Assembly (NCBI GenBank): GCA_015178975.1
Contig: WHVD01000032.1
Coordinates: 558,001 to 622,000, forward strand
DNA length: 64,000 nucleotides
DNA from: Hysterangium stoloniferum
Taxonomy: Eukaryota; Basidiomycota; Agaricomycetes; Hysterangiales; Hysterangiaceae
Reading direction: 5' to 3'
Shown here: one piece after another, positions 444-63,927 of the stretch
Position numbering within the stretch: the first letter of the stretch is position 1
Layout of the letters: every line of letters starts with the position of its first letter
The notes under the pieces: generated by a model
Databases searched by the model: none
Told to the model about the DNA's origin: nothing
The model's input: the letters and a program-made list of their open reading frames with translations, nothing else
Position numbers and translations under genes: made by a program

Positions 444-1169
444 AGGTTTGATGACTATAAGTGCTTATAGTCATGTGACTTTGTTGATTTTTTACTTCCA
501 GTTGGGTCCTATCAACAAAATCACATGATGTCACATGATGTCACATGACCATGTTGTACTGGAGTGTAAATATATGGCTTTTAGTAACCAGCAATGCCCC
601 AATTCCCAAAATCCGCACTTTATCTCTTGCCAGCCAGAATCATATCCTCTCATTGCTTGATGTTGGCCATTCAGCTAGCCACATTGCAGCTTCTACTGGT
701 CATAGCATTTCCACAGTCTCTAAGCTTTGCTCTAGGCATCGTTCTCATCTCTCAAAGTCCATTGGTGGTTGTCCCTCAAAGCTTTCCCCTACCAACATTC
801 ACTATGCACAGCACCTCATCAGTTCTGGGAAGGCTGACACTGCTGTTGATGTGACCAAAGCCCTTAGGAATCTCACCAACCAGTGCATCTCTACGCAAAC
901 TGTGCACAGTAGTCTCAAGATGGTTGGGATGAAGGCTGTGATGAAGAGGAAAAAGCCCCTTCTCGGCAAAAACCATAGGAAGGCAAGGATGGACTTTGCT
1001 ATAGCACATCAGCATTGGACTGTGGAGGACTGGAAGAAGGTGGTATGGTCTGATGAAACCAAAATCAACAGGTTGGGGTCAGATGGGAGGAAGTGGGTCT
1101 GGAAAAAGGCTGGGGAGGGCTTGAGTAACAGGCTGGTTCAGGGGACTCAGAAGTTTGGAGGAGGATCTA

Positions 1170-1388
1170 CAGTGGGTCAAAAAACTGCCCCAATGTTTGT
1201 GCATTTTAGAAAGATTGATATTGTGTGAAGGAATGATATCAGCAAAAATTCTGAACAATTCACATGATATACTAGAACATGTTGGCTATCTACCAACTTA
1301 AGAAATTATGTGATTCTGATCAAAACTCTTTGCTCAATAAATCAAACAAAATAATCACTCATTGGGGCAGTTTTTTGACCCTCTATTA
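1170..1388 (+). repeat. Left terminal inverted repeat of TcB
   Basis: The outer tip CAGTGGGTCAAAAAACTG followed by CCCCAATG is repeated inverted at the inner edge, 1360-1382 (CATTGGGGCAGTTTTTTG then ACCCT). The intervening 165 bp matches 2596-2740 in reverse. Confidence 0.88.
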
Positions 1389-1529
1389 TTTTCTCTGCTT
1401 TTCAATGTTACACACTAGTATAAGGTAGGGGTGGGTCATGTGAATCATCAACATGTCATGTGACCTTATTTGTATCAATTTAGCATGTTGAACTTTGTTC
1501 ATTCATCTCCTTGACTCCTTACCACCACT

Positions 1530-2547
1530 ATGAAATCCATCTCTGCTGAAAAGCATTCTTCTGTTGTTTCTCTCCTCAGTGAGGGGTATTCCCATTGTCA
1601 AATTCAACCTAGGACTGGCCTGGGGAAGGGTACTATTGGCAGAATCAGTAGGGAGGTAGAGAGGGATAAGGAAAATCATCCTGGCGGCCATTCTTCCAAG
1701 CTTTTCCCTTATGATAAACAGTCAATTATCTGTCAAATCAGCTCTGGGAAGCTTGACAATGCTGTCCAAGCCACCCAATTCATAAATTCCATCATATCTA
1801 CCTTTGTCACTCCTCAGACTGTTAGGAATGTGTTGAAGGAAGCTGGCTTTAGGTCAGCAACAAAGAAGAAAGTCCCTATGCTCAAGGGGTCTCATCATCA
1901 GCAACATCTAAAGTTTGCCCAATACTATAAAAATTGGACTATGGAGGACTGGAAGAGGGTGTTGTGGACTGATGAGACAAAAATGAATAGGATTGGGTCA
2001 GATGGGAAGGTATATGTTTGGAAGCAACAAGAGGAACCAGTATCAGATGGGACCACCACACCAACTGTCAAACATGGAGGGGGAATAACTTGATGGTTTG
2101 GGGGTTGATGGGCTGGAATGGGGTGGGGAAGCTGATAGAGATGCAGGGGAACATGGATGCAGTGCAGTATTGTGAGATTTTGGAGGAGGGAGTGGAGGAG
2201 AGCATTGAAAGTTTGGAGATGGCTGAGGATAACTGGTACTTCCAACAAGACAATGATCCAAAACATACCTCAAAAAGGCAGACCAGTGGTTTTCTGACAA
2301 TAACATAATTCCCATGAAGTGGCCTGCCCAATCCCCTGATCTAAATCCCATTGAACACCTCTGGCAACACCTCAAGGCCAAACTCCAACAATATGACATA
2401 CCACCCAAAGGAGTACATGAATTATGGGACAGGGTGGCAAAGGAGTGGACTGAAATACCACCAGAGACATGCCAGAAGCTAATAGAAAGCATGCCTAGGA
2501 GGATACAGGCAGTTTTAAAGGCAAAGGGGGGTCATACAAAGTATTAG
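1530..2547 (+). pseudogene. TcB transposase with two frameshifts
   Basis: Tc1 transposase reading from ATG 1530 (MKSISAEKHSSVVSLLSEGY) through an N-terminal helix-turn-helix and the first catalytic Asp in VLWTDETKMN. The frame shifts near 2080 in a G-rich run (GGAGGGGGAATAAC), continues from there as NLMVWGLMGWNGVG to the second Asp in FQQDNDPKHTSK, then shifts again in an A-run near 2272. It resumes at 2314-2547 with WPAQSPDLNPIEHLW (catalytic Glu) and the family ending LKAKGGHTKY. Both lesions are single-base changes in homopolymers, so they are recent or could be sequencing errors. The predicted intact length is about 340 residues. It is most similar to the TcD transposase among those in this window (shared block GKLDNAVQAT). 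Confidence 0.85.
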
Positions 2548-2555
2548 ATTGTAAA

Positions 2556-2766
2556 ATAATAGAGGGTGCCCCAATGAGTGATTATTTTGTTTGATTTAAT
2601 GAGCAATGAGTTTTGATTGGAATCACACGATTTCTTAAGTTGGTAGATAGCCAACATGTTCTAGTATATCATGTGAATTTTTCAGAATTTTTGCTGATAT
2701 CATTCCTTCACACAATATCAATATTTCTAAAATGCACAAACATTGGGGCAGTTTTTTGACCCACTG
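2556..2766 (-). repeat. Right terminal inverted repeat of TcB
   Basis: Inverted partner of 1170-1388. The inner tip here (AGAGGGTGCCCCAATGAG, 2561-2578) has lost about 9 bp compared with the left inner tip. The outer tip is intact. Confidence 0.85.
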
Positions 2767-3245
2767 TATGATGGTATGGGGGTGCATGTTGTGGAAAGGA
2801 CCTGGGTATGCTTGTAAGATAGATGGGAGGATGGATGGAGACCTTTATCTCAATATTATGGAGGAGGACCTTCAAGCCAGCCTCAACTATTATGGAAAAT
2901 CTGTGGGTCATGTCATCTTCCAGCAAGACAATGACCCCAAATATACCTGCAAGAAGGCCCAGACTTGGTTTCAAAATAATAATTTCAATGTCCTCCCATG
3001 GCCAGCACAATCTCCAGACCTCAACCCCATTGAACGCTTGTGGGATCATATCAAGAGGAGGCTGGGGAAGTATGAGGTTGAACCAAAAGGGATACTGCAG
3101 TTGTGGGAGAGGGTGGAGGAGGAGTGGAACAAGATTGATGCAGAGGTGTGTCAGAATTTGATTGGAAGTATGCCTAGAAGGGTTGCAGCTGTGTTGAAGG
3201 CAAAGGGTGGCTATACCAAGTACTGAATATAAGTAGTTTTGTGGG

Positions 3246-3451
3246 TCAGAGTGGTCAGAAAAAAAACCCTTCTCATGAGTCTCTTGTATATACAATATTT
3301 GTAGTATTTCCATATTTGGAGATTATGGAATGGTATTGTACTTCCACAATCTAGATATGGTAGAGTATATTCACAAATATTTTTGATATTTTTGCATTCA
3401 TGGAAGATACATCTGAAGTATAAAACATGAGAAAGGTTTTTTGAGGCACTG
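3246..3451 (-). repeat. Right terminal inverted repeat of TcA
   Basis: Inverted partner of 232-443. The inner edge (3255-3279) carries AAAAAACCCTTCTCATGAG and the outer edge ends in GAGGCACTG. It is about 85-90 percent alike to the left copy by eye, with small indels. Confidence 0.82.
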
Positions 3452-26473: not shown

Positions 26474-28596
26474 GTGGGGAAATTAACCTTGCCGTCTCCT
26501 CACCATAGCCTTCTTGGCATGTCAATTACCCAGTCACCGGCTCACTCGTCCCTGCATCCCCTCCCTTTTCCTGATCTGTTTACTCCGCACTCCCTTCCAC
26601 CTCTCCGCCCCAACTCTGACCCCCGTTGCAATCGTGTACCCTCATCACCCCATATGCTCCCCACCATTTCCTCCCCACTAAATTTGCACGCATGGGACTT
26701 CCATCTTCGGGACTACCCTGACCGCACATTTGTCACTTCATTACTTCACATAATACAACATGGTGCTCTTATTGGTTTCAATGGTGACGATAATGAGCAA
26801 TATTGCAAAAACTTAGCATCAGCCTTTGAGCATCCGCAGGAAGTTTCTTCCTTTATTAACAAGCTTTTATTGAATTCGCATGCTGTGGGCCCGTTCCCCA
26901 CTCATCCCCTACCCCACTTCCACTGCTCTCCTCTAGGAATTGCTACGCGTAAACGCAGCTCCAAACTCCGGCTTATCAACCACCTTTCATGGCCTACATT
27001 GTCATCGGTCAACCATGGGATTCCCGATTCCGAAGCCTCTATCACTTACGAATCCTTTGAAGCAGCACTTCAAGTCATTCGCCAATTCGGTCCTGGGACC
27101 CTTTTAGCTAAACTTGACCTTAAAGAAGCATTCCATCATATTCCGGTTGCTCCATCACAATGGCATCTCCTCGGTTTCCACTGGGAAGATAATTTCTATC
27201 ACGCGATAGTTCTTATTTTCGGCCTGCGTTCGGCCCCTTATATATTCAACCTGTTTGCCAAAGCCTTACACTGGATCATTGTGCGCCACATTCCAGCTGC
27301 TCTTCGCCACTATCTCGACGATTTCCTGCCCATATTTCGTCCTGGCACATCCCTACCCATTGCTAATGCCGCTATCGATTGGTGCCAAGCACTTGGCCAC
27401 CAACTCGGCCTCTCATTTCAACATGAAAAAACAATCTGGCCATGTACAACACTAGAGTATCTAGGGTTGGAATTGATACTATTGCCATGGAAGCACGCTT
27501 GCCAGCTAACAAACTGACCTATCTCCGCGATATTCTCAGTGCTGCTCTTATCGCCCCCACCTTTACATTGAAGCAAGTTCAGGAACTCATTGGGTTCCTC
27601 CAGTTCTCCGTGCAGGTTATCCCTCATGCTCGAGCATTCATCCGACGCCTTATTGACTTCTCTATGTCATTCACTTCTCCATTCTCGCGCCGCCACATAC
27701 CGGCTTACGCTCGGGGTGATATTCGATGGTGGCACACCTTCTCTCATGCCTGGAATGGCATTGCCATCATCCAGCCATCCCTTCCCACACTGCATGTGTA
27801 TACTGATGCCAGTGGTCGAAAAGGCATTGGTGGTATATTTGGCAACCAATGGTATTCTGCACACATACCTCGTCGTTTTCGTGAGCACGATATCCAATTC
27901 AAGGAGATATACGCAGTTCTCCAGGCCATTACACGCTGGGGTTCTCTTTGGTCCGGCCATCATATTGTGTTCCATGTTGATAACTCTGCCATTGTCGCTG
28001 CACTCACACAGGGGACCACCAGAGCACGCTTTGCAATGTCCATTGTCCGCGATATTGCCATGCTAGCATCATTTCTGAGATTCTCCTTGTCTTCCTCTTG
28101 GCTTTCTTCTGAGATGAATGCCCTTGCTGATTCTGCCTCTCGTTTTCAATATGCACGCTTATTTACTCTTAACCCTTCTTTGTGTAAACAGAACTGCTCG
28201 AACAACCCCCGGCTCATTGGTATCAGACGAACGCTCACCTCTCCCCACCGGTCGCCTTTTTCCTTTGGTATGGCCTCGCCAGCAGCACTAGACGAACATA
28301 CACCATGGGGCAACGTTCATTCATTGACTTCATCACCCTCCGCCCTCATCTCCTCAACCACGATCGATCCTTCCTCCCATCCAACAAGAATGCCGTCGTT
28401 GAATGGGTTGCCCATCTCGGGCTCACCAGGCGACTCAAAGCATCGACGATCAAGTCATACCTCGGTCACCTCAAGTCTCTCCACATCGACGCGGATCTCT
28501 CCTTCACAGCTGTCGAGGCTCCCCTCGTCCAGCATGTCATCAGGGGCATCAAGCGCTATTTTGGCGAGTGTGCCCGTCATCCCGTTGCGCCTATAA
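26474..28596 (+). CDS. Reverse transcriptase and RNase H region of element I
   Basis: Recognisable DIRS-type RT blocks include KLRLINHLSWP, GTLLAKLDLKEAFHHIPV, FGLRSAPYIFN and the polymerase box HYLDDF (about 27310-27330). The RNase H domain follows (LHVYTDASGRKGIGGIF, HVDNSAIVAAL, NALADSASRF; about 27795-28150). The region spans two overlapping open stretches (26474-27517 and 27442-28596). It would copy element RNA into DNA. Confidence 0.8.
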
Positions 28597-29267
28597 CCCT
28601 TCCTATTCTCCAACACCTCATTAGGTTCTCCTTCCCGCACTCATCAATCCAAGCTGCAACGATCGACGCAGCCATTAAACTGGCTTTCGCAGGTTTCTTA
28701 TGCTGTGGCGAATTCACCGTGAAGGGGAGTAAATTTAAGACCTTCGATCCTTCTGCTCACTTGACCAGAAGCGCCATTTCTTTCTTGCCTACTTTCGAGA
28801 ACCCCTCCGACATTACTATCACTTTCCCTGCCTCCAAAACTGACCCCTTTCGGAAGGGCATTACCACTTATGTTGCCGCCATGGCTGCCGCCACTTGTGC
28901 CGTGCATGCCCTCAGATACCTTTTTATCGCAGACCCACGCCCTCCTAATTCACCCCTATTTTGCAACGACGATGGATCCCCCCTCCAGTATTCTCTCTTC
29001 ATGTCTTCTCTCCGATCCCTCCTCCACACCGCTGGTTTCGATCCTACCGACTTCGTGGGTCACTCGTTTCGGAGGGGCGCAGCTTCTTCTGCTGCTGAAG
29101 CAGGGTTTACTGATTACGAAATTCAACTGATGGGGCGCTGGCGCAGTGACGCCTACAAACTTTACATCAAATCCTCCTGCACACGCATTCTTCACCTCTC
29201 TGCTAGGCTTCATTGGGCCGTTCCCACCGCTCAACCTCCCAGTCCGCTGGACCTTCATCTCACTTAA
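28305..29267 (+). CDS. Tyrosine recombinase of element I
   Basis: 320 codons. It would replace a DDE integrase by inserting a circular DNA copy through a covalent tyrosine intermediate. The C-terminal catalytic signature is clear: GHSFRRGAASSAAEAGFTDY holds the His-x-x-Arg pair, followed by MGRWRSDAYKLYIK with the Trp and the candidate nucleophilic Tyr. An upstream conserved Arg lies in LCCGEFTVK/ TRSAISF. The N-terminal SAM-like region (KASTIKSYLGHLKSLHID) fits DNA binding. It is about two-thirds identical, by eye, to the recombinase at 30005-30895. Confidence 0.85.
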   Translation: MGQRSFIDFITLRPHLLNHDRSFLPSNKNAVVEWVAHLGLTRRLKASTIKSYLGHLKSLHIDADLSFTAVEAPLVQHVIRGIKRYFGECARHPVAPITLPILQHLIRFSFPHSSIQAATIDAAIKLAFAGFLCCGEFTVKGSKFKTFDPSAHLTRSAISFLPTFENPSDITITFPASKTDPFRKGITTYVAAMAAATCAVHALRYLFIADPRPPNSPLFCNDDGSPLQYSLFMSSLRSLLHTAGFDPTDFVGHSFRRGAASSAAEAGFTDYEIQLMGRWRSDAYKLYIKSSCTRILHLSARLHWAVPTAQPPSPLDLHLT

Positions 29268-29269
29268 CC

Positions 29270-29370
29270 ATTTGGCTTGAGCACGGCCCGATTTATTTCT
29301 GGTTGCGCAAAAGAGCGGTGGCAACGCAATAGACTCTATTTGCTCGCCCAAACTCACGAACGAACACCAG
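29270..29370 (+). repeat. B1 repeat of element I
   Basis: GGCTTGAGCACGGCCCGATT through CAATAGACTCTATTTGCTC, repeated as B2 at 29650-29733. Confidence 0.85.
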
Positions 29371-29733
29371 AGATGATTTGGACAAAAATAATTTGTCCAC
29401 GTTCTCTGAAGGAGGCACGTGATATGGACAACAATGCCCGATCACTTTTTACGCCACTCATTGTTCTTTTGTTCCCTTTTCTCTTTGTTCTCTCTCATTG
29501 TTCTTTATCCTATATATCCCGCATTCCTAGTTCCACACTCCCCATCTCGTCTCGTCTCAATTCTGCACTCGATAGTCTTCAAAGACTTCGAGTTCTGCTT
29601 ATATTTTCGCACCTGCCCTTCCTCTTACCCTATTTACGCTGCATGTATTTCGCTTCCACCGGCTTGAGCACGGCCCGATTTATTTCTGGTCGCGCAAAAG
29701 AGCAGTGGCGACGCAATAGACTCTATTTGCTCA
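29371..29733 (+). repeat. A2 and B2 repeats of element I
   Basis: A2 (29371-29612) repeats A1 but has a single copy of the stretch ending CTCGATAG before TCTTCAAAGACTTCGAG. B2 repeats B1 with two or three differences. The element's right end is taken at TTTGCTC (29733), where homology to element II's RNase H starts. Confidence 0.82.
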
Positions 29734-31393
29734 ATGCCCTTGCTGATGCCGCTTCTCGCTTTGAATTTGCTCGACTATTTCGTCTTGCTCCTTCTTTGCC
29801 TTTACAGAGCTCCAAGACTTCCCCCCACCTCACTGGTATCAGGTCCATTCTCACCTCCCCCATACTGTTGCCTTCTTCCTCTGGTATGGACTCGCACCGT
29901 CCACACGTAGAAGCTACCGCACGGGCCAGCGCTCCTTCTTCGACTTTGTCATCCTCCATCCCTACCTCCGAAATCAGGATGGCTCCATCCTGCCCGCTTC
30001 CAAGATGGCCGTCCTCAAATGGGTCGCGTACCTTGGATACTCCAAGTGTATTCTCGCCTCTACTATCAAGGCCTACCTTGGCCACCTCAAATCCCTCCAC
30101 ATTGACTCCGACCTCCCATTCGACTCTGTTGAAGCCCCTCTTGTCCAGTGTGTCATCCGCGGGATCAAGAAATTCTTTGGTGACAGAACCAGGAAGCCGT
30201 CTGCCCCTATCACCCTTGACATCTTGCAGCGTCTCATCCAAGTTTCCACCCCCTCCACATCCCTCCATGCCGCAAACATGGATGCTGCAATCAAAGTCGC
30301 ATTCGCTGGGTTCTTGCGGTCAGGGGAATTTACCATCAAATCAGGAAAACACAATGCCTTTGATCCCTCCTGCCATCTTACCCGGAGTGCAGTTTCCTTT
30401 CTCCCATCCTTCGACAACCCCTCCAGCATTAGCATCACTTTGCCCGCTTCCAAAATGGATCCCTTTCGAAAAGGGGTCACAATCCACATTGCCGCTGTTG
30501 ACGCTCCCACCTGTGCTGTCCAAGCCCTCCAATTCCTCTTCCACACTGACCCCCACCCCCCGTATGCCCCTCTCTTCTGCAACATGGACGGTTCCCCCCT
30601 CCAGTACTCCACCTTTGTAGACAGCCTTCGGAGCCTCCTTTTTTCAGCAGGCTTTGACCCTACCCCATTTTCTGGACACTCCTTTCGCAGGGGAGCAGCT
30701 ACTGCTGCGGCCAATGCTGGTTTCACAGAATACGAAATTCAATTGCTCGGACGATGGCAAAGCGATTCATACAAATTATATGTCAAATCCTCCCACTCTC
30801 GACTTCTCAATCTCTCAGCACGACTTCATTGGGCCGTTCCCATTGCTCACCCTCCCGGGCATCCAGCCCTTCAGCTCACTCCCTCTTTGGCTTGAGCACG
30901 GCCCGGGTCTTTCCGACGGTGCAAGAGAGCGGTGGCGATGCAAAAATAGATTTGTTGCTTGCCCAACGCACGAAGGACAGAGATAGATCGAACAAATGCC
31001 TTTGTTCGGTTTCTCTGGATGAGGCACGTGACACATGCTTAGGGCCGCAAGGCCACACTTCCATTGTCTCCTCACTCCCATTGTACATTGTCCTCTATTG
31101 TCCCGCATTCATTATATATAGCTACTGTCTTCATGGTCATTCCCCATCTCCCATAGTGCTCACAGCACCACTCGATAGGTACATAGTTCACTTCTAGTAT
31201 CATCTCCCATAGTGCTCACAGCACCACTCAATAGTCTTAAAAGACATCGAGTTGAGTTTTCTTTTCACCCACCCTTTCCGCTTCCCACTTTCTAGTGCTT
31301 TTCTTTCTCCTTGTCGGCTCCCCTCATTGTATTTCGCTTCCGCCGGCTTGAGCACGGCCCGGGTCTTTCCGACCGTGCAAGAGAGCGGTGGCG
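29734..31393 (+). mobile_element. DIRS/Ngaro-like element II, right half only
   Basis: It begins inside RNase H (NALADAASRFEFARLFRLAP), then a recombinase (30005-30895), B1 (30892-30985), A2 (about 30986-31285) and B2 (about 31325-31393). The terminal sequences differ from element I, with GGCCCGGGTCTTTCCGAC in both B repeats, so this is a separate family. The left half is absent on either side of element I. Confidence 0.8.
30005..30895 (+). CDS. Tyrosine recombinase of element II
   Basis: 296 codons, open. Same architecture as in element I: SAM-like start (LASTIKAYLGHLKSLHID), catalytic GHSFRRGAATAAANAGFTEY and LGRWQSDSYKLYVK. The start is taken at ATG 30005, but the upstream frame suggests the original began earlier, as in element I. 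The ORF persists although the rest of its element is gone, so the loss of the left half was recent. A long antisense ORF (30073-30726) is a shadow. Confidence 0.8.
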   Translation: MAVLKWVAYLGYSKCILASTIKAYLGHLKSLHIDSDLPFDSVEAPLVQCVIRGIKKFFGDRTRKPSAPITLDILQRLIQVSTPSTSLHAANMDAAIKVAFAGFLRSGEFTIKSGKHNAFDPSCHLTRSAVSFLPSFDNPSSISITLPASKMDPFRKGVTIHIAAVDAPTCAVQALQFLFHTDPHPPYAPLFCNMDGSPLQYSTFVDSLRSLLFSAGFDPTPFSGHSFRRGAATAAANAGFTEYEIQLLGRWQSDSYKLYVKSSHSRLLNLSARLHWAVPIAHPPGHPALQLTPSLA

Positions 31394-46511: not shown

Positions 46512-46725
46512 AAATATATATTTATATATTATTATAATAAAATATTATTATATTTATAATTAACTAAAAGTAAATATAATAATTATATAATAATATAAAA
46601 TCGGCCACCTGGCACTTATTACATAGCATGTGGGAAAATCATCACAATGAGTGACAGCCGTCACAACAGGTGACAGCCATCACAACAGGTGACAGTTGTC
46701 ACAAAGGTGTGTGACAGTCACAAAG

Positions 46726-47412
46726 GCACACCATGGTCACAAAGGTGCACCATGGTCACAAAGGTGCACCATGGTCACAAAGGTGCACCATGGTCACAAA
46801 GGTGCACCATGGTCACAAAGGTGCACCATGGTCACAAAGGTGCACCATGGTCACAAAGGTGCACCATGGTCACAAAGGTGCACCATGGTCACAAAGGTGC
46901 ACCATGGTCACAAAGGTGCACCATGGTCACAAAGGTGCACCATGGTCACAAAGGTGCACCATGGTCACAAAGGTGCACCATGGTCACAAAGGTGCACCAT
47001 GGTCACAAAGGTGCACCATGGTCACAAAGGTGCACCATGGTCACAAAGGTGCACCATGGTCACAAAGGTGCACCATGGTCACAAAGGTGCACCATGGTCA
47101 CAAAGGTGCACCATGGTCACAAAGGTGCACCATGGTCACAAAGGTGCACCATGGTCACAAAGGTGCACCATGGTCACAAAGGTGCACCATGGTCACAAAG
47201 GTGCACCATGGTCACAAAGGTGCACCATGGTCACAAAGGTGCACCATGGTCACAAAGGTGCACCATGGTCACAAAGGTGCACCATGGTCACAAAGGTGCA
47301 CCATGGTCACAAAGGTGCACCATGGTCACAAAGGTGCACCATGGTCACAAAGGTGCACCATGGTCACAAAGGTGCACTATGGTCACAAAGGTGCACCATG
47401 GTCACAAAGACG
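46726..47412 (+). repeat. 19-bp satellite array, about 36 units
   Basis: A near-perfect head-to-tail array of CACCATGGTCACAAAGGTG. It is flanked by degenerate units on both sides (46640-46725 and 47412-47590). It occupies the place of the 18-bp minisatellite in the young LTRs and shares the GTCACAA core. Confidence 0.97.
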
Positions 47413-47732
47413 CATCACGGTCACAAAGACGCATCACGATCACAAAGGTGCACTATGGTCACAAAGGCGCACCATGGTCACAAAGGCGCACCATGGTCAC
47501 AAAGACGCACAATGGTCACAAAGACGCATGACAGTAACAAGAGCGCGCAACAGTCGCAAAGGCACGCAACAGTCACAACATGTGACAGTCACAAGATGCG
47601 AAGGGTGTCATACACACACAGGCACAAGAGCATTATGTCATCATGTATGCTACTACAACAAAAACTGGAAACTCCCTGGAATATTCCAGTGGTTTCCAAA
47701 GGAACAGTAGATAATAGGTACTGATAGTAGAT

Positions 47733-51337: not shown

Positions 51338-52385
51338 ATGAAACATAACATTTTAACTATCATTCTTATCATAAAAGCTATTTCCCCTCTCAAAAGAGAA
51401 CAAGCCATCTCCCTCCTACAAAATGGACTCTCCAATAGGAATGTAGCCTCTACAACAGGTCTTAGCAAATCTACTATCAGTAGAATTGCTCAGGAGATAG
51501 AGATAGACAAAGAAAACCTGAAAGGAGGATGTCCATCCAAGCTTTCTCCTACTGACCAAAGGAGGATCATATATCAAATCACCTCTGGCAAACTAGATAA
51601 TGCTGTCCAGGCCACACACTACATTAATTCCATCTATAAATATCATGTCTCACCCAAAATAGTCAGAAGGACCTTGAAACAGCATGGTTTAAAAGCTGTA
51701 GTCAATGCAAAAAGACCTTTGCTCAAGGCTCAACATAGAAAGGCCAGGTTAAGCTTTGCCCTCAAGTACCAAAACTGGACTGTGGATGATCAGAAAAGGG
51801 TCTTGTGGTCTGATGAGACCAATATCAATAAGATTGGGTCAGATGGACATCAATATGTGTTGAAGAAAGCTGGAGAACCACTTTCTGATAGGACAACCCA
51901 ACTTATAGTCAAGTATGGAGGGGGAGATATCATGGTGTAGGGCTGTATGGGTTGGAATGGAGTGGGAATGCTTGCAGAGATTGAAGGAAGGATGGATTCT
52001 GCATAATATGTGGAGATCATGGCTCAGCATTTGTCCCAGAGCATTGAAGATTTGGATATTCCAGCAGATGAGGCCATTTTTCAGCAGGATAATAACCTAA
52101 ACACATATCCAAGATGGCACAAAAATGGTTTTTTGAAAATTATATTCAGGTGTTAGACTGTACAGCACAGTCTCCTGACCTGAATCCCATAGAACATCTT
52201 TGATTCCACATGAAGAAACAGCTCCAGAAATATCCTTCACCATTAAAGGGAGTTTAGGGGTTATAGGAGAGGGTGGAAGTGGAATGGGCAAAGATTGAGC
52301 CTCAGAAGTGTCAGAAACTGATTGAAAATATGCCCAGAAGACTTGATGCTGTAATAAAGCCTAAGGGAGGCCATACAAAGTACTA
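51338..52385 (+). pseudogene. TcD transposase with several lesions
   Basis: Open for 200 codons from ATG 51338. N-terminal helices (KREQAISLLQNGLSNRNVAS), GKLDNAVQATHYIN, and the first catalytic Asp in VLWSDETNINKIG. A TAG at 51938-51940 replaces the Trp codon of MVWGCMGW. The frame then continues with another stop (SA*YVEIM) and a damaged second-Asp block (FQQDNN where DNDPKHTS is expected). The Glu block SPDLNPIEHL is present at 52175-52202, followed by two more stops before the ending PKGGHTKY. The start could alternatively be the next Met. The original was probably about 345 residues. It is closest to TcB in this window. Confidence 0.85.
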
Positions 52386-53061: not shown

Positions 53062-53368
53062 TACAGATAACTAATATACAATGGGGAGATATTCTGACTG
53101 AAGTCCTTCACTCTTCTGATTGCCCTTTTATGCCTTTCTTCATTAAACTATGATTAAACTATGACCTATGAATGAAATCATATATGATGTCAAAATGAGA
53201 CAAGTTGAATGTAAGTCAAATGAATTTGAGGGTGTCAAAGATGTCAAATAGAATGTCGAGTCGGAATTTTAGTCGAAGATAAATTGATGTGTCGAAGATG
53301 AGTTGAAGAGTTGTTGAAAGTTACCTTGAATATTTTGTGACAATTTTGTGACTGTGACTGTTGTGACA
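53062..53368 (-). mobile_element. LTR, family F, reverse and partial
   Basis: Diverged reverse copy of the chromovirus LTR. It contains GCCCTTTTATGCnTTT and ATGATGTCAAAATGAGAC, and ends TTGTGACA at 53368. Beyond it (53369-54061) lies a Zn2Cys6 gene in the position expected for the antisense region of that element. Confidence 0.7.
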
Positions 53369-55002: not shown

Positions 55003-55149
55003 CAGTGCCCCCCAGTTCAAAGGGATGTGCTATACAAAATTCTGGAAAGTTTTGGGGATGCCCCCCAGGTGTCTTGTGTGGAGCCTCCCAAACTGCAAGG
55101 TGCCAAGACCCCAGTATTCAAAGAGAGGTTGGTGGGTTTAGGGGTGGTG
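55003..55149 (+). other. Open flank interrupted by the chromovirus
   Basis: CPPVQRDVLYKILESFG is part of an open stretch that runs into the insertion site. Its possible continuation is on the other side (61782 onward). No family recognised. It could be a host gene fragment. Confidence 0.3.
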
Positions 55150-55579
55150 TGTCACAACCATCACATGTCACATATTGTCACAAACATTCAAAGGTAACTT
55201 TCGACAACTCTTTGACCTATCGAATTCAACTCGACAAAACCGAACATTATTCGACACCATCGAATCTCTTTCAACATGTCTCATTTCGATGTCATATATG
55301 ATTTCATAATTAGTTCATAACATAGTCATAACGATACGACAAAAAGCATAAAAGGGCTACGAAAGGAGCGAGGGAAGTCAGTCAAAATATCTGTATATTA
55401 GTGATATTAGTAATCTATCTTGTCGTAACTTCTTCGACAAATACTTCCATGAGTTCTCGCGACTGGTAATAGCCTCTTACTTCATCGACAGGGCGAATAT
55501 ATACTTCGTCGAACGAGGCTTTCGAGTTCAATTAGTAGAATATTATTCGACTCTATCGAAGAATAATCGATTCATGACA
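55150..55579 (+). repeat. 5' LTR of the chromovirus (family F)
   Basis: 430 bp, TGTCACAACCATC...TTCATGACA. TCGA is very frequent. Confidence 0.9.
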
Positions 55580-55789
55580 GTATATTTCGACTATCAACTG
55601 TTGATGAAGCCCAGGACGCGATCTGAGACTACCAAAGCATCAAGTTCCACAGCACTGCAATCCGTGGCTCCCACTCCTTTGCCGAGAGTTATTCGGCCAT
55701 CGTAAATTCCAGTTTCTCCTTTAACTAAAACTAGAAGAACTGCAATGTCTTCAACCCGAGAACCCGAAGAAGTTTGAGAAGAACCGATC

Positions 55790-56850
55790 TTGCCAATTCA
55801 AGAATCCAAATCCCCTTTAATGCCTTTGCCTGAATCTCCACACCCTGAACCTGTTACATCTGAAGATGAAACAATGTTTCGACATTTCGGAGATGCACTT
55901 GGAAAAGTATTGAAGGACCAGATAGCTTCGAAGGAACCCAAAATCACAGTGAATAAGCCCAAAGAGTTTACTGGAGAAGAACCTTCGATGTTGAAGAATA
56001 TTATTGCTCAATGTGAAATGGTCTTTCGATCTCGACCAAAATTGTCCGAATCTGATCAATCGAAAATTACGATGGTAACTTCGTATTTCCAGAAAACGGC
56101 TCAAGAGTGGTGGCAACCTTTTCTATTAAATCCCCAATTCCTCCGCCATCTTTCCTTGTGGATTATCTCGATTTTCTAGATGAATTATATGCTCAGTTTG
56201 GAGAAATCGATGCAGAAGGAGAAGCCGAAGAAAAACTCGATAATCTTCGAATGAAAACTCATCATCATGTTGTGAAGTATTCGATTCAATTTACAAGTCT
56301 CACTGCTCAAACTCGATATGACGAATTTGCTTTACGATGACGATTTTATAAAGGACTTCCAAATTGAATTAAGGATGAAATAGTGAAGCTTCAAGTTCAG
56401 CCCGAAAGTTTTGCTGAACTGCGAATGGCAGCCCTTTGACTTGATTCTTACTATTGGATGCGAGAGAATGAACGACAACGCGAAACAGAATCAAGTTCGA
56501 TTCCACAAAGATTTGAAAGAAGACAATTGACGATGCCTACGACTTATCCATCAACATCGCGAACACCTTTGACTTCAAAACTGACAACTTCGACTTCAAG
56601 AACATTTAGGCCTTCAACTCAAGTGAAACCATCTTCGACAATTTTAGGACCTGATGGACGATTACTTCCTGCCAAACGAGACAGAAGATTTAAAGAAGGG
56701 TTATGTATATTATGTGGGGAGAAAGGTCATTCGGTGAGGGATTGTCTAAAAAGAAAAACTCGTCAAATTGCAAAAGGACGAATCATTGAAGTCCAAGATT
56801 TGACAACTCAATCCGACCAGTCAAATCAAGCATCAAATGTTAAATCGGAA
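55790..56850 (+). CDS. Gag region of the chromovirus
   Basis: Open in pieces. It contains the capsid-like block ITVNKPKEFTGEEPSMLKNI and a zinc knuckle CILCGEKGHSVRDC (CCHC) near 56700-56745. Broken by a few lesions. Confidence 0.7.
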
Positions 56851-56852
56851 AA

Positions 56853-57635
56853 TTGAAAAGGGATACTCTTCAGGCATGTGAAGAGTATCGAAGAAGACTC
56901 GATCATGCTGAAAAAGATTCCTGTGTAATATTACGAGCAGTAACAATTTCTGATTCTTTAATCATTGAACTTAAATCGAATAAAATTCCGAAAATGAAAG
57001 CATTAATTGATTCAGGATCTAGTCATCATTTTATGGACAAAATGTTTGCACGACAAAATAATCTATCTTTCAACCGATTAAAAAATCCGTTATCATTAAA
57101 ATTAATTGACGGATCGACTCCAACATCGGGACAAATCACGTATACGACTACATTACAAGTTTACTTTCCATCCGGGCAAATTCAAGAATTACAATTCTTT
57201 CTAACCAATCTCAACTCGTCTTGTCAAGTGGTATTAGGACTCAACTGGCTGAAGCAATACAATCCTGCGATTGACTGGCGATCTGGCCGTATATTGTTCG
57301 AACCTACTTCGACACCTTTGACAAATCCGAATCCAATTCAACCGTCAATCGAAACATTATCAGAAGAGAAGCATGCTTCGACCTCGGCGAGTCATTCATC
57401 GACATCTGAGAAAATCCGTGAAGAATCAAAATCTGAGACTGTTAATCCGAATATCAATATAGTCAATCAAAAGACTTTCTTACAAGCTGTGAAAGCAAAA
57501 GACTCTCAAACCTTTGTGGTCTTTATTCACGATGAATCTTTCAAGACTTGTAAGGCCTCCGGTGCAAAAACTACGACTTCGACATCATTCGACATACCAA
57601 ACATTCTGACCGAATATTCTGACCGAATATTCTGA
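56853..57635 (+). CDS. Aspartic protease region of the chromovirus
   Basis: Retropepsin-like domain: [20 protein letters not shown] holds the catalytic DSG triad and [17 protein letters not shown] is the family's C-terminal block. Open over 260 codons. Confidence 0.75.
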
Positions 57636-57639
57636 CTTC

Positions 57640-58230
57640 TTGGATGTTTTCGACAAAAAAGAAGCTGAAGCTTTACCTCAACATCGAAGTTATGATCACG
57701 CTATCCCATTAGAAGAAGGAACTATTCCACCTATGGGTCCGATCTATTCGTTATCCGAGACAGAACTTCAAGTGCTACGAGAATATCTCCAAGAGAACCT
57801 TTCGAAGAAGTTTATTCGATCGTCGCAATCTCCCGCCGGCACACTGATTTTATTCGTTAAGAAGAAAGACGGAAGCCTACGGCTTTGCATCGACTATCGA
57901 GGACTTAATAAAATCACATGGAAAAACCAATATCCACTTCCTTTAATTCCTGATCTTTTGGATCGACTTCGAACGGCGAAATATTTTACAAAAATCGATC
58001 TCTGAGGCACATATAATTTAGTTAGAATTGCTCCAGGAGATGAGTGGAAAACAGCCTTTTGGACTCAATATGGATCTTTCGAATATTTGGTTATGCCTTT
58101 TGGACTGTGCAATGCTCTGGCAACCTTTCAACAATTAATGAATGAAATATTTTCAGATTTACTTGATATTTCGGTAATCATCTATCTCGACGACATACTA
58201 ATATTTTCCAACATTCTCGAAGAACATTTA
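57640..58230 (+). CDS. Reverse transcriptase region of the chromovirus
   Basis: Characteristic blocks [41 protein letters not shown] and the active-site box YLDD near 58185. Broken. The following connection and RNase H parts are not evident. Confidence 0.75.
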
Positions 58231-59522
58231 TGACAAGTTCGAGAAGTTCTTCGACGGCTTCAACAAAATCAATTATTTGCAAAACCCAAAAAATGTGTGT
58301 TATTTCTCCTCAAGGCGTATATATGGACGAAGAAAAAATCAAAGTTATTCAAGACTTTTTATGTTTCCGAAACAGAATTTACGTTCCCGATTATCAAAAT
58401 CTCCGACTTCAAGTTCTTCAATCACGACACGATCATATTACTGCAGGCCATTTCGGTCAAACGAAAATGTATCAAACAATATATCGAGATTTCTTTTGGC
58501 CACAACTCCGACAAGATATTCAAAGTTTCATTCAATCATGCGTAACGTGTACAAAATCGAAAACTCCACAACATCGACCCATTGGATTACTTAAGCAACT
58601 TCCGATTCCTCTTCGACCATGGCATTCAATCTTGATGGACTTTATCGAACAATTACCGACCTTGAATGGTTATGACTCAATACTCGTAATAGTCGATCGA
58701 CTTTCGAAACAAGCAATATTCATTCCAACTTATACTACAATCAATGCTCCTGAACTCGCTCGACTTTTTGTATTACATGTCTTTTCAAAACATGGAGTCC
58801 CCAGTCATGTAACTTCCGATCGAGGATCCGAATTCATATTGCATTTCTTTCGATCACTCGGAACAGCACTCAACATGAAATTACATTTCACTTCCAGATA
58901 TCATCCTGAAGGCGATGGACAAACTGAACGAGTTAATCAAACCCTCGAACAATATTTACAAATATATTCCAATTATCAACAAGACAATTGGGCCGATTTA
59001 CTTCCTTTAGCCAAATTCACTTACAACAATGCACCTTCCGAAACAACTGGTGAAACACCATTTTTTGCTAATAAAGGTTATCATCCATTGTTAGAAATTC
59101 ACCCTGAAAAAGATCTAGCTTCCGCTCTAGCTCACGATTATATGACAGATCTCGAAGCTCTATATAAACATCTCAAATCAAATATCCAGAAAGCGCAAAT
59201 ACGTTATCAAAAATATTTTGACATACATCGAAAAGAGTCTTTCGACTTTCCGATCCATTCTCAAGTCTTTGTACGATCCGACTTTATTCGAACAACTCAA
59301 CCATCGAAAAAATTATCGGAAAAATTATTAGGCCCATTCGAAATCATTGCTCAACCAGGATCTCATTCATATACATTAAAACTCCCCAATCATCTCAAAG
59401 GAATTCATCCCGTCTTCCACATCTCAATGTTAGAACCGTTTTATCCCAATACTTTCCCAAATCGAAAACAACCTCCTCCTCCTCCGATTTATGTTGAAGA
59501 AGAACCTGAATATGAAATTTGA
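58230..59522 (+). CDS. Integrase of the chromovirus
   Basis: HHCC zinc domain ([20 protein letters not shown]), catalytic core ([39 protein letters not shown]) and the GPF/Y-like module ([20 protein letters not shown]). Open through the whole integrase. The chromodomain follows. Confidence 0.85.
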
Positions 59523-59700
59523 GAAATTTTGGATTCAAAATTCAATAAAAGATATAAAGATTCATTACGATATTTAGTTGCTTGGTTAGGTTACGAAGGA
59601 ACAGACGAAGAAACTTCATGGTTAGGATCTCAAGATCTCAAACATGCTTTCGACCTTATCAAAGAATTTCATCAAAAATATCCAAATCTTCCACAACATT
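59490..59700 (+). CDS. Chromodomain at the integrase C-terminus
   Basis: Blocks typical of chromoviral chromodomains: YLVAWLGYEGTDEETSW and a preceding EILDSKFNKRY. Known to steer insertion toward modified chromatin. Broken at its start. Confidence 0.7.
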
Positions 59701-59806
59701 AAAAATTTCATTCAACTATCTTTCAACACTTATTTCGACATCTAATTGACAAAATCGAAAAACATATCAAACTGCAAAAACATCAATTAATCAAAATTTT
59801 AAGTAT

Positions 59807-61270
59807 CTACAAATCTTCAATTCCTTCCTCTCTCAATTCCTCCATCTTATCAAACCATGCCCTCCTAAACCTTCCACTATTCACACTAATATCAGTCTCT
59901 TCGTCAAAATCTCCGTTTTTGACCAGCTTCTTCATGTGAAGAGTGGTGGAAGTTCTAACCATTCTATATATGAAGAATATCGACCGTTTAGGTACGACAC
60001 CAGGATGTATTGACTGTCTAAGTCTAATACAGACTGAACGCATATTGACTGCTTAGTTCAATACAGTAGAGAGAAGTAGCTATCTAAAGTAAGGTAGAGA
60101 GCTAGAACGAATAAGTAGAATTGACTGTTAAGTGTGATTCTGAATGACTGCTCGAGTGCAAAGTAGAGTAACTAGAGAGTCGAATATAGAGTAGCGTGGA
60201 TGTAGTCCACGCAGGTTGAGATAAGGATTGAGTTTCGACTGGTACAGTTCGAAACTCTGATTGAGTAGATAGCTAAAGCCGTCTGTGACGGTCGAGATGA
60301 TACACCAATCACAACTTACAAGACACTAACGGGTGTCTGGGTAAGTCGTGGTTGCGGTGTAAAAGTGTCTGAGTTCTAAACTACGGGTGCTAGAATACAT
60401 AAGTCTGGTGTGTATGCACCCACAAGAGTCAATGTACCGCATACATAGGTCGTTGAACTAATTATAGATATATAATAAAAGAGAGAAAACAGAAATAATA
60501 AAGGGAATATAGTAAGAGCTCATCCAACTGTATGTATTTCGCCATACCTCTCACACTTCGACAGAATCGAAAAATCATCCCTCAACGCTTTAACCTCACC
60601 AATTAAATCCTCCATTCTTTCCTCCATTTTCGACATCCTTTCACCGATCAATTTGATTTCTTTTTCCAACTGATTATCCGACCGATGTTCCGACCTTCTC
60701 AACCGTCTAGAAAAATTCGACATTCTCGACATGACATTGCAACGACTATTTTTCCTTTGCCCAAGCTTTCAAATCTCTGGACTACCATTTTCGTTTTCAT
60801 CTTCCGATTCTTCGATCACGTTTCGACTCTTTTTTCCATTTTTATGCAGTTTTCTGGCTGGCCTATTTACGGTCCAATAACAGGCCCGATGCAACCGATT
60901 GCACTGATTGCAATTCGACGACGCATTACTTTTCTTGCACACGAAATTCGTGTTGAAACACATTGTGCAACTGGAAAAAATAAATAAGCAAAATTCGACA
61001 AAAATTCGACAAAACCGAAAAATTACGAATTTTCCGATTTTGCTTCAAATTCCCATTGCATTCCAATCCCCTTACGAGTCGCCTTATTGAACGGTTCTTC
61101 GCAGTCTTCTATCCGCTTTTTGGGAATTTCTTCTAAAAAAATAACTAATTAACTAATTTTAAAGAAATCCCAGAAATCGACTTACCAACTGCATTAACAA
61201 CCACATCTCTATCCTTGAAACCCAAAAACTCGGATCCTGATTCGAGTTGATCGACTTCTATATCAGACAT
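59807..61270 (-). other. Antisense coding-like region inside the chromovirus, with a Zn2Cys6 cluster
   Basis: On the minus strand between chromodomain and 3' LTR are several open stretches. 61270-61190 starts MSDIEVDQLESGSEFLGFKD. 60963-60769 carries CTMCFNTNFVCKKSNASSNC followed by NQCNRLHRAC, exactly C-x2-C-x6-C-x8-C-x2-C-x6-C, the fungal Zn2Cys6 pattern. 60732-60520 is a highly charged coiled-coil-like stretch (EKEIKLIGERMSKMEERMED). A last acidic stretch ends at 59807. A family G LTR is nested at 59935-60522. GT/AG pairs between the stretches suggest the region was spliced in antisense. Broken as it stands. Confidence 0.6.
59935..60522 (+). mobile_element. LTR, family G, nested in the chromovirus
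   Basis: TGTGAAGAGTGGTGG to AAGAGCTCA. The reversed relative is 62007-62594. No clear target duplication; edges are approximate. Confidence 0.65.
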
Positions 61271-61351
61271 TGATTGAGGAACATGAAAATAGACGATGAA
61301 AAAAACTTTTCAAACTCCAACCTCGTAGGCTCGGTCACAAAGGGAGGATAC

Positions 61352-61781
61352 TGTCACAACCATCACATGTCACATATTGTCACAAACATTCAAAGGCAAC
61401 TTTCGACAACTCTTTGACCTATCGAATTCAACTCAACAAAACTGAACATTATTCGACACCATCAAATCTCTTTCAACATGTCTCATTTCGACGTCATATA
61501 TGATTTCATAATTAGTTCATAACATAGTCATAACAATATGACAAAAAGCATAAAAGGGCTACGAAAGGAGCGAGGGAAGTCAGTCGAAATATCTGTATAT
61601 TAGTGATATTAGTAATCTATCTTGTCATAACTTCTTCGACAAATACTTCCATGAGTTCTCGCGACTGGTAATAGCCTCTTACTTCATCGACAGGGTGAAT
61701 ATATACTTCATCGAACGAGGCTTTCGAGTTCGATTAGTAGAATATTATTCGACTCTATCGAAGAATAATCGATTCGTGACA
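61352..61781 (+). repeat. 3' LTR of the chromovirus (family F)
   Basis: 430 bp, preceded by the purine tract AAAGGGAGGATA (61339-61350). Confidence 0.9.
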
Positions 61782-61786
61782 TGGTG

Positions 61787-62006
61787 AGGGAACATATTGA
61801 TGTGGAAAGGAGGGGGGGGAAATGGATCCATTCTTTTCCTTCCAGTCCTTAGTCGAGCACTCCTCCAGTCCTTGAATAGCAAATGGACTACTCGATAGCC
61901 TTCTAGACACTGCCACATTGTCTCCTTCCAGGATGCGAGCCATTCCTCATAGTAGATGTCCTGTTGTGAGAGGTATGGCAAAATACACTCAGGAAATATA
62001 GTCGGA
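61787..62006 (-). other. Right flank of the chromovirus insertion
   Basis: An open minus-strand stretch (61981-61745: MPYLSQQDIYYEEWLASWKE) runs into the LTR. No family recognised; possibly a host or element gene fragment. Confidence 0.3.
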
Positions 62007-62594
62007 TGAGCTCTTACTATATTTCCTTTATTATTTCTGTTTTCTCTCTTTTATTATATCTATAATTAGTTCGACGACCTATGTATGCGGTACATCGACT
62101 CTTGTGGGCACACACACGCCAGACTTATGTATTCTAGCACCCATAGTTTAGAACTCAGACACTTTTTACACTGCAACCACGACTTACCCAGACACCTGTT
62201 AGTGCCCTGTAAGTTGTGATTGGTGTATCGTCTCAACCGTCACAGACGGGCTTTAGCTACTCACTCAATCTGAGTTTCGAACTGTACCAGTCGAAACTCA
62301 ATCCTTATCTCAACCCGCATGGACTACATCCACACTACTCTATTATTCAACTCTCTAACTACTCTACTTGCACTCAAGCAGTCGTCCAGAATCGCACTTA
62401 ACAGTCGATTCTACTTATTCATTCTGGCTATCTACCTTACTTTAGATAGCTACTTCTCTCTACCGTATTGAACTAAGTAGTCAATACGCGTTCAGTCTGT
62501 ATTAGACTTAGACAGTCAATACATCGTGGTATCGTACCTAAACGGTCGATATTCTTCGTATATAGAACGGTTAGAACTTCTACCACTCTTCACA
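62007..62594 (-). mobile_element. Solo LTR-like sequence, family G, reverse
   Basis: TGAGCTCTTAC to CTCTTCACA, the reverse of 59935-60522 and about 90 percent alike. No target duplication was found. Confidence 0.65.
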
Positions 62595-63497: not shown

Positions 63498-63927
63498 TGT
63501 CACAACCATCACAAGTCACAATATTGTCACAAACAATCAAAGGTAATATTTGACGACTCTTCAACTCATCAAATTCGACTCAACAAACCTGAACATTATT
63601 CGACAACATCGAATCTCTTTCGACATGTCTCATTTCGACATCATGTATGATTTCATTATTAGTTCATAACATAGTCATAACAATACGAAGAAAAGCATAA
63701 AAGGGATACAAAAGGAGTGAGGGAAGTCAGTTGAAATATCTGTAAATTAGTGAAACTAGTAATCTATCTTGTCGTAACTTCTTTGACAAATACTTCCGTG
63801 AGTTCTCGTGACTGGTAATAGCCTCTTACTTCATTGACAGGGTGAATATATACTTTGTTGAACGAGGCTTTCGATTCAATCAGTAGAATATTATTTGACT
63901 TTATTGAAGAATAATCGATTCATGACA
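63498..63927 (+). mobile_element. Solo LTR, family F
   Basis: 430 bp, TGTCACAACC...TTCATGACA, with target duplication CCATC (63493-63497 and 63928-63932). Many TCGA sites of the chromovirus LTR read TTGA or TCAA here, so it is an older or more deaminated copy. Confidence 0.9.

Follow-up and report, generated by a model that had tools for sequence, protein, structure and literature searches.

A Ty3/gypsy chromovirus of the fungus Hysterangium stoloniferum carries, antisense to its gag-pol genes, a genuine gene that is under selection and, going by its splice signals, spliced. The element occupies positions 55150-61781 of a 64,000-bp stretch of contig WHVD01000032.1 (hereafter the window; G000:C246:558001-622000), and the gene lies at 61270-59807 in three exons, between the chromodomain and the 3' long terminal repeat (LTR). 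The genome searched was the source assembly (111 Mb in 554 contigs). The gene accompanies nearly all sampled members of its element family (family A), and genes of the same design were found in two further chromovirus families of this genome (families B and C).

Layout of the antisense gene in the window and in its relatives

The gene in the window is composed as follows.

61186-61270, minus strand: exon 1, acidic, with the ATG at 61270-61268
61133-61185, minus strand: intron 1, GTAAGT..TAG
61027-61132, minus strand: exon 2, with the KGIGMQWEFEAK block; ratio of nonsynonymous to synonymous substitutions (dN/dS) 0.18
60971-61026, minus strand: intron 2, GTAATT..CAG
60556-60970, minus strand: exon 3, part one, with the six-cysteine cluster (60969-60880), a basic and acidic linker, a heptad stretch and a premature stop after SPEI
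59935-60555, no strand assigned: solo LTR of another element family, 621 bp, splitting exon 3, its ends read from the sequence
59807-59934, minus strand: exon 3, part two, the conserved C-terminus KKLV..EEGIEDL and the stop codon (59809-59807)

An earlier note on this DNA had placed a minus-strand gene at 59807-61270, with a start-like acidic stretch, a perfect cysteine cluster, a coiled-coil-like stretch and intron-like borders. All four were recovered: the ATG opens an acidic stretch, the cluster C-x2-C-x6-C-x8-C-x2-C-x6-C starts at 60969, a heptad pattern follows it, and the borders belong to two GT-AG introns that are conserved in relatives. The gene does lie in this span, of which 621 bp are the foreign solo LTR. 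The window copy is thus broken twice, by this LTR and by the single stop codon after SPEI, both in exon 3. The solo LTR (TG..CA) is bounded by the target duplication CTTCA (59930-59934) and CTTCG (60556-60560), has a 92% identical inverted copy at 61996-62594, just outside the window element, and is missing from the intact relatives of the gene. The cysteine pattern is unique across the six frames of the window and did not occur in any of 60 simulated windows of equal dinucleotide make-up.

We then turned to the closest relatives within this genome (40 of 137 candidate matches were scored, giving 30 loci, of which L001 is the window). In these relatives the uninterrupted gene has exons of 85, 106 and 538 nucleotides, two introns, and 242 codons plus a stop. 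Seven of the 29 copies besides the window are fully intact, with the ATG start, GT..AG borders at both introns, and neither an indel nor a stop (L006, L010, L016, L017, L019, L020 and L022). Intron 1 reads GT..TAG in all 29 related copies. The acceptor of intron 2 is AG in all of them, and its donor is GT in 22, AT in 6 and TT in 1.

Purifying selection on the antisense frame

Divergence was computed from 28 copies, the window and the rearranged locus L005 being excluded. It amounts to 0.071, 0.064 and 0.179 at codon positions 1, 2 and 3, third positions exceeding the first two by a factor of 2.5-2.8; the CpG-free columns give 0.040, 0.026 and 0.130. The integrase of the element, used as a benchmark (21 copies), gives 0.044, 0.035 and 0.086. 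The antisense gene evolves faster than the integrase and has the same coding signature. The pairwise dN/dS has a median of 0.24 in 378 pairs and of 0.23 in the 21 pairs among the seven intact copies. In the other frames, taken over the whole coding sequence and all copies, dN/dS is at least 1.16. The exception is the mirrored sense frame, at 0.34; its third positions coincide with those of the antisense frame, and its exon 3 is interrupted by one or more stops in 28 out of 28 copies. The six cysteines are more conserved than random exon 3 residues (P = 0.02); five of them are found in every readable copy and the sixth in 27 out of 28.

Linkage of the gene to its element family

The gene is tied to the element in place and orientation. 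Among the 97 chromodomain rows of the family, 91 are followed within 4 kb, on the other strand, by the cysteine exon (84 rows) or by the C-terminal exon (90 rows). The 97 rows were taken at 66% identity or more from a search in which 150 of 1879 candidates were scored, a copy on C257 contributing two of them. The median distance from the cysteine exon to the chromodomain is 450 bp. Downstream of the 97 chromodomain rows the cysteine exon never lay on the same strand, and on their other side it was missing throughout the first 1.5 kb. A second count from the integrase located the gene at 62 of 67 family rows (at least 76% identity), 60 of them by the cysteine exon, with the opposite strand checked, and 56 by the C-terminal exon, for which the strand was not entered. 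Neither exon was found beside 6 of the 97 chromodomain rows and 5 of the 67 integrase rows. Seen from the gene, 29 of 114 cysteine-exon matches have no such chromodomain match nearby. The proposal of the earlier note that this is an accessory gene of a Ty3/gypsy chromovirus, which should recur in family members and be under purifying selection, is therefore borne out by the 91 of 97 and 62 of 67 rows and by the codon-level divergence. We found no relatives in collections of viral contigs, prokaryotic contigs and plasmids, a result with little bearing on other fungi.

The same design in two further chromovirus families

With the window protein as query, none of 53 more distant chromodomains was found to have the gene, the query being too diverged. 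Inspection of the 1.2 kb beyond the chromodomains of L059 (family B) and L060 (family C) revealed an antisense six-cysteine gene in each. The frame at the chromodomain is 1302 amino acids long in L059 and 1237 in L060. Both genes have the cysteine layout C-x2-C-x6-C-x10-C-x2-C-x6-C and fit two GT-AG introns at matching sites (REGK|RK and GPSSPK|K). The protein model of family B has 274 amino acids (270 with an alternative splice choice), and the start of the family C gene lies beyond the stretch taken for L060. Within the cluster the two proteins are akin (E = 6e-6), and each has a basic run where exons 2 and 3 join (PKKPKVK in C, PKKQKQ in B). One pair of copies from each family gave a dN/dS of 0.17 (B) and 0.24 (C), with 74% amino-acid identity and all six cysteines kept.

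Both families are abundant. For the B exon, 150 of 478 candidates were scored, many of them 96-100% identical with an open exon of 164 codons; for the C exon, 150 of 986 candidates were scored. Downstream and on the opposite strand, a gene of the B or C type accompanies no fewer than 38 of these 53 chromodomains (13 B, 25 C), as well as no fewer than 55 of 83 integrases of 60-63% identity (49 B, 6 C). These counts are lower bounds, because 87 of the 150 B rows and 32 of the 150 C rows were entered, partly chosen by contig. No same-strand gene of either type was found downstream of these chromodomains and integrases. Among the rows entered, no antisense gene was matched at 15 of the 53 chromodomains and 28 of the 83 integrases, and none was recognised beside the chromovirus copies with a 1302-amino-acid pol frame at C1:274549, C3:193987, C523:182747, C221:53911 and C496:546134. 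Family A is tied to families B and C by position, strand, exon count and cysteine layout, from which we infer common descent.

Protein make-up and likeness to Zn2Cys6 domains

The family A protein has, in order, an acidic N-terminus, the six-cysteine cluster, a basic linker (8 K/R and no D/E in 19 residues), an acidic patch, a second basic stretch, a heptad coil and a conserved acidic C-terminus. The heptad pattern covers 42 residues in one extant intact copy, a length reached by none of 2000 shuffles.

The earlier note had named this a Zn2Cys6 gene. The Zn2Cys6 domain (PF00172) follows the pattern C-x2-C-x6-C-x5-12-C-x2-C-x6-8-C, and basic residues between cysteines two and three are a hallmark of it. 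The spacing in family A fits this pattern exactly, and the loop between the second and third cysteines holds three basic residues in B (TKRGRT) and one in C (SIRNMT). We compared family A by hhalign with five host Zn2Cys6 domains from four loci: the six cysteines were all aligned, with probabilities of 12% and 5.5%, and the result was equalled by 2 of 200 full shuffles and by 39 of 200 shuffles that kept the cysteines. For the B+C profile the probability was 77%, and none of 120 full shuffles and 3 of 120 cysteine-kept shuffles did as well. Against Pfam Zn_clus, the B and C proteins (one each) remained below the cut-off (E = 2.2 and 2.3; 8.9 bits vs. 21). In the PDB, a profile of six A, B and C sequences gave weak matches to Pho7 (E = 0.53), C27B12.11c (0.58), PPR1 (0.85), ZNF692 (2.8) and LEU3 (7.4). 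For families B and C, the Zn2Cys6 name is a fair description of a likeness. For family A, the exact spacing alone speaks for the name, which is unproven.

An NCBIfam scan of the seven intact proteins yielded scattered coil-type matches (best E = 0.00056, in one member), which were not used. The host genome itself has Zn2Cys6 genes above the Pfam cut-off (42 matches). PF00172 matches are clustered on C56, C115, C113 and C209 (L052), with two or more within one frame on C56 and C115; these clustered matches may be mobile-element genes too. Similar cysteine clusters with a PSKK-like stretch are probably common in hypothetical proteins of Agaricomycetes.

Proposed role and alternative explanations

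We consider it rather probable that the gene is a protein-coding accessory gene of the chromovirus whose product is made from a spliced antisense transcript, is nuclear and dimeric, and regulates the sense transcription or the integration of its own element. Transcription would start from a promoter in or beside the 3' LTR, 81 bp from the ATG; the transcript would be spliced and the protein imported into the nucleus, the basic linker being nuclear-signal-like. The six-cysteine cluster of family A probably holds two zincs. The protein may dimerise through the heptad coil, and binding to nucleic acid or chromatin would then feed back on sense transcription or integration. The sense genomic RNA would keep both introns because they exist as introns on the other strand only, and the introns of the antisense gene consequently survive retrotransposition.

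Several results weigh against this interpretation. On the side of selection, introns diverge by 0.082 (0.044 CpG-free) and the flanks by 0.086 and 0.096 (0.061 and 0.071 CpG-free), all between the values of the codon positions and well below third positions, so that there is no clean neutral yardstick and the argument for selection is a contrast among codon positions and among frames; for transversions, the 3' flank (0.042) even exceeds third positions (0.036). Exon 1 taken alone (28 codons) has a dN/dS of 0.49 in the proposed frame and lower values in two other frames, and the six cysteines are not more conserved than CpG-free exon 3 residues (P = 0.10). On the side of linkage, one of the 114 cysteine-exon matches has a same-strand chromodomain match within 4 kb. 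Regarding the protein, Pfam Zn_clus was not among the matches of family A at E ≤ 10 in any of seven members. Family A has no basic residue between the second and third cysteines (FNTNFV and alike), and a single family A sequence gave four matches in the PDB up to E = 10, none of Zn2Cys6 type. An AlphaFold model of the 67-amino-acid cysteine piece of the window alone had a predicted local distance difference test score (pLDDT) of 54 and was not used. Moreover, sequence does not connect family A with either B or C (E = 0.036 and 0.021, across short stretches), and its score against the B+C profile was equalled by 26 of the 120 full shuffles and by 77 of the 120 that kept the cysteines. As to the heptad coil, a length of 42 residues was attained by 22 of 500 shuffles in B, a marginal outcome, and by 142 of 500 in C, where the coil is not significant.

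Some of these points would suit a protein that works mainly on RNA or particles, i.e. a Gag partner, an RNA chaperone, or a Rev-like export or packaging factor, in which the cluster and basic linkers bind RNA and not promoters. The basic-rich linkers and the lack in family A of Zn2Cys6 hallmarks beyond spacing agree with this, whereas the resemblance of B and C to Zn2Cys6 DNA-binding domains and their basic runs at the exon 2/3 joint do not, and we regard it as unlikely. Somewhat more doubtful still is a targeting or silencing-evasion factor that acts with the chromodomain, by steering integration or opening chromatin, instead of regulating a promoter: in family A the gene is nearly always beside a chromodomain, and B and C are high-copy families, but the chromodomains and integrases of other families left unmatched among the rows entered speak against it. 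That a fragment of a host Zn2Cys6 gene was recently captured, or that the gene is a nested insertion of no use to the element, is very improbable. Although the host has such genes and a nested solo LTR does sit inside the window gene, a recent origin of this kind is refuted by the fixed place and strand, the selection and the same layout in three families. Finally, the idea that the antisense RNA alone matters, through double-stranded RNA or antisense control, with an incidental frame, is raised for LTR elements in a part of PMC7264820, but is nearly refuted by codon-level purifying selection in one frame, by the conserved splice sites and by the likewise low dN/dS of one B pair and one C pair.

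As for a binding site of the proposed nuclear regulator, three GTCAC motifs occur within 40 bp at the LTR end. This candidate operator was dropped, since some 5-mer reaches three occurrences in 159 of 300 shuffles; GTCAC itself does so in 0 of 300.

Comparison with known antisense genes

Antisense accessory genes of LTR retrotransposons (aORF-3R) are already known, and the present gene is a further variant. The antisense gene brtn of the fungal element Boty is one of them, reportedly going back to Zhao et al. 2011 (Virology 417:248). Boty, described in part of PMC4227169 as a fungal Ty3/gypsy element with a CHROMO domain, carries brtn between pol and the 3' LTR in Botrytis cinerea (Boty / BcGypsy1; sections of PMC7264820), and the gene is also named in a portion of PMC8365987. 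Both systems are fungal, chromodomain-bearing Ty3/gypsy elements whose antisense gene sits between pol and the 3' LTR. The present gene encodes 242 amino acids in three exons, has a six-cysteine cluster and is of a design present in three families.

In plants, the gypsy elements Retand have antisense TRP28 open reading frames with proposed DNA binding and a proposed regulatory role (passages of PMC11963269), and gene23 of Grande has a predicted nuclear location and likewise a proposed regulatory role (passages of PMC7264820). Retand differs in its plant host and its non-chromovirus lineage; Pfam transposase-28 was not among the matches of the A, B and C proteins at E ≤ 10, and a distant kinship may escape the HMMER filters, which discard most matches weaker than about 0.1. 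According to the same portions of PMC7264820, antisense accessory genes of LTR elements are without established function. The antisense genes of the human T-lymphotropic virus (HTLV) and an antisense promoter of this virus are mentioned in parts of PMC7264820 and PMC11963269.

The HTLV protein HBZ and the present gene product share a design, an antisense gene beside the 3' LTR, and this likeness is one of design only; HBZ belongs to a retrovirus and to the bZIP proteins, whereas here a cysteine cluster is found in a fungal chromovirus. HBZ is a nuclear regulator with a dimerising coil. With Gal4-type Zn2Cys6 factors (PF00172), the common traits are the cysteine spacing, the coil after the cluster in A and the profile similarity of B and C; the differences are the lack of any above-cut-off Pfam match in A, B and C and of the basic loop in A.

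Going by titles and abstract openings among its top-ranked results, a literature search brought up no antisense gene of Zn2Cys6-like kind in an LTR element of a fungus, and neither did word searches within PMC3248453, PMC10799480 and PMC2864245. More tentatively, and with rather more doubt than confidence, we suggest that a whole clade of fungal chromoviruses possesses a third gene of ancestral origin that is antisense and spliced, is expressed from the 3' LTR side and encodes a Zn2Cys6-like nuclear regulator, similar to HBZ and independently evolved. Such antisense regulators may be a regular component of these elements. If so, they would form a large reservoir of element-borne transcription factors, with hundreds of copies in this genome (114 A, 150 B and 150 C matches entered or scored). 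Three chromovirus families in one genome, with splice sites, selection and domain layout at hand, offer a testable case for whether an element encodes a transcription factor of its own on its back strand. Such genes could easily pass as scattered host proteins and inflate the counts of Zn2Cys6 or hypothetical proteins.

The host chromovirus

The element that carries the gene in the window comprises the following features.

55145-55149, no strand: target-site duplication TGGTG, 5' copy, matching 61782-61786
55150-55579, plus strand: 5' LTR, 430 bp, TG..CA, paired with the 3' LTR
55790-56856, plus strand: gag remnants, broken by stops, with a capsid-like stretch and a CCHC zinc knuckle
56853-57635, plus strand: protease region (RVP_2, E = 7.5e-11)
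57640-58005, plus strand: start of the reverse transcriptase, the remainder partly deleted (RVT_1, E = 6.6e-5, below cut-off)
58230-59522, plus strand: integrase (H2C2, core, SH3-like)
59523-59702, plus strand: chromodomain-like stretch, after a TGA and with a TAA at its end; a stretch of 59 amino acids that adjoins the integrase in relatives
61339-61349, plus strand: polypurine-tract-like run ahead of the 3' LTR, read from the sequence
61352-61781, plus strand: 3' LTR, 430 bp, its U3 side 81 bp upstream of the antisense ATG
61782-61786, no strand: target-site duplication TGGTG, 3' copy

The element has the TG..CA LTR pair, the 5-bp target duplication and the domain order gag, protease, reverse transcriptase, integrase and chromodomain stretch of a Ty3/gypsy chromovirus, with protease and integrase over the Pfam cut-off and gag and reverse transcriptase weak in this broken copy. 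The gag remnants gave Retrotrans_gag (E = 5e-4), Ty3_capsid (0.009) and zf-CCHC (0.017), each below cut-off; within the integrase, Integrase_H2C2 (1.3e-20) and SH3_Tf2-1 (3e-17) are above it and rve (2.2e-7) just below. The stretch at 59523-59702 is presumably a chromodomain, a label that comes from the earlier note. The window copy is defective, with stops in gag and pol, and has lost about 0.9 kb between reverse transcriptase and integrase relative to L044, judging from the spacing of integrase-query residues 22 and 41. The two LTRs show 13 differences over 430 compared columns, all of them transitions and 12 of the 13 at CpG, and most stops inside cysteine-exon matches are TGA. Such a pattern resembles decay through methylation of cytosines. 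LTR conservation also showed a gradient, which was left uninterpreted because the copies had been picked by the similarity of the adjoining gene. A solo LTR of the same family (89%) follows the element at a distance of 1.7 kb (63498-63927), and upstream of the element, at 53065-53368, there are older LTR fragments in inverted orientation (75-85%).

Other features of the window

Elsewhere in the window, two open reading frames at 28305-30895 adjoin a reverse transcriptase-like one; we take them to encode proteins of a tyrosine-recombinase (DIRS-like) element. The frames at 545-3313 and 51338-51940 are presumably broken Tc1/mariner-like transposases. Finally, a long tandem repeat with a HGHKGAPWSQRCTMVTK-like unit occupies 46689-47724 and is open in three overlapping reading frames.
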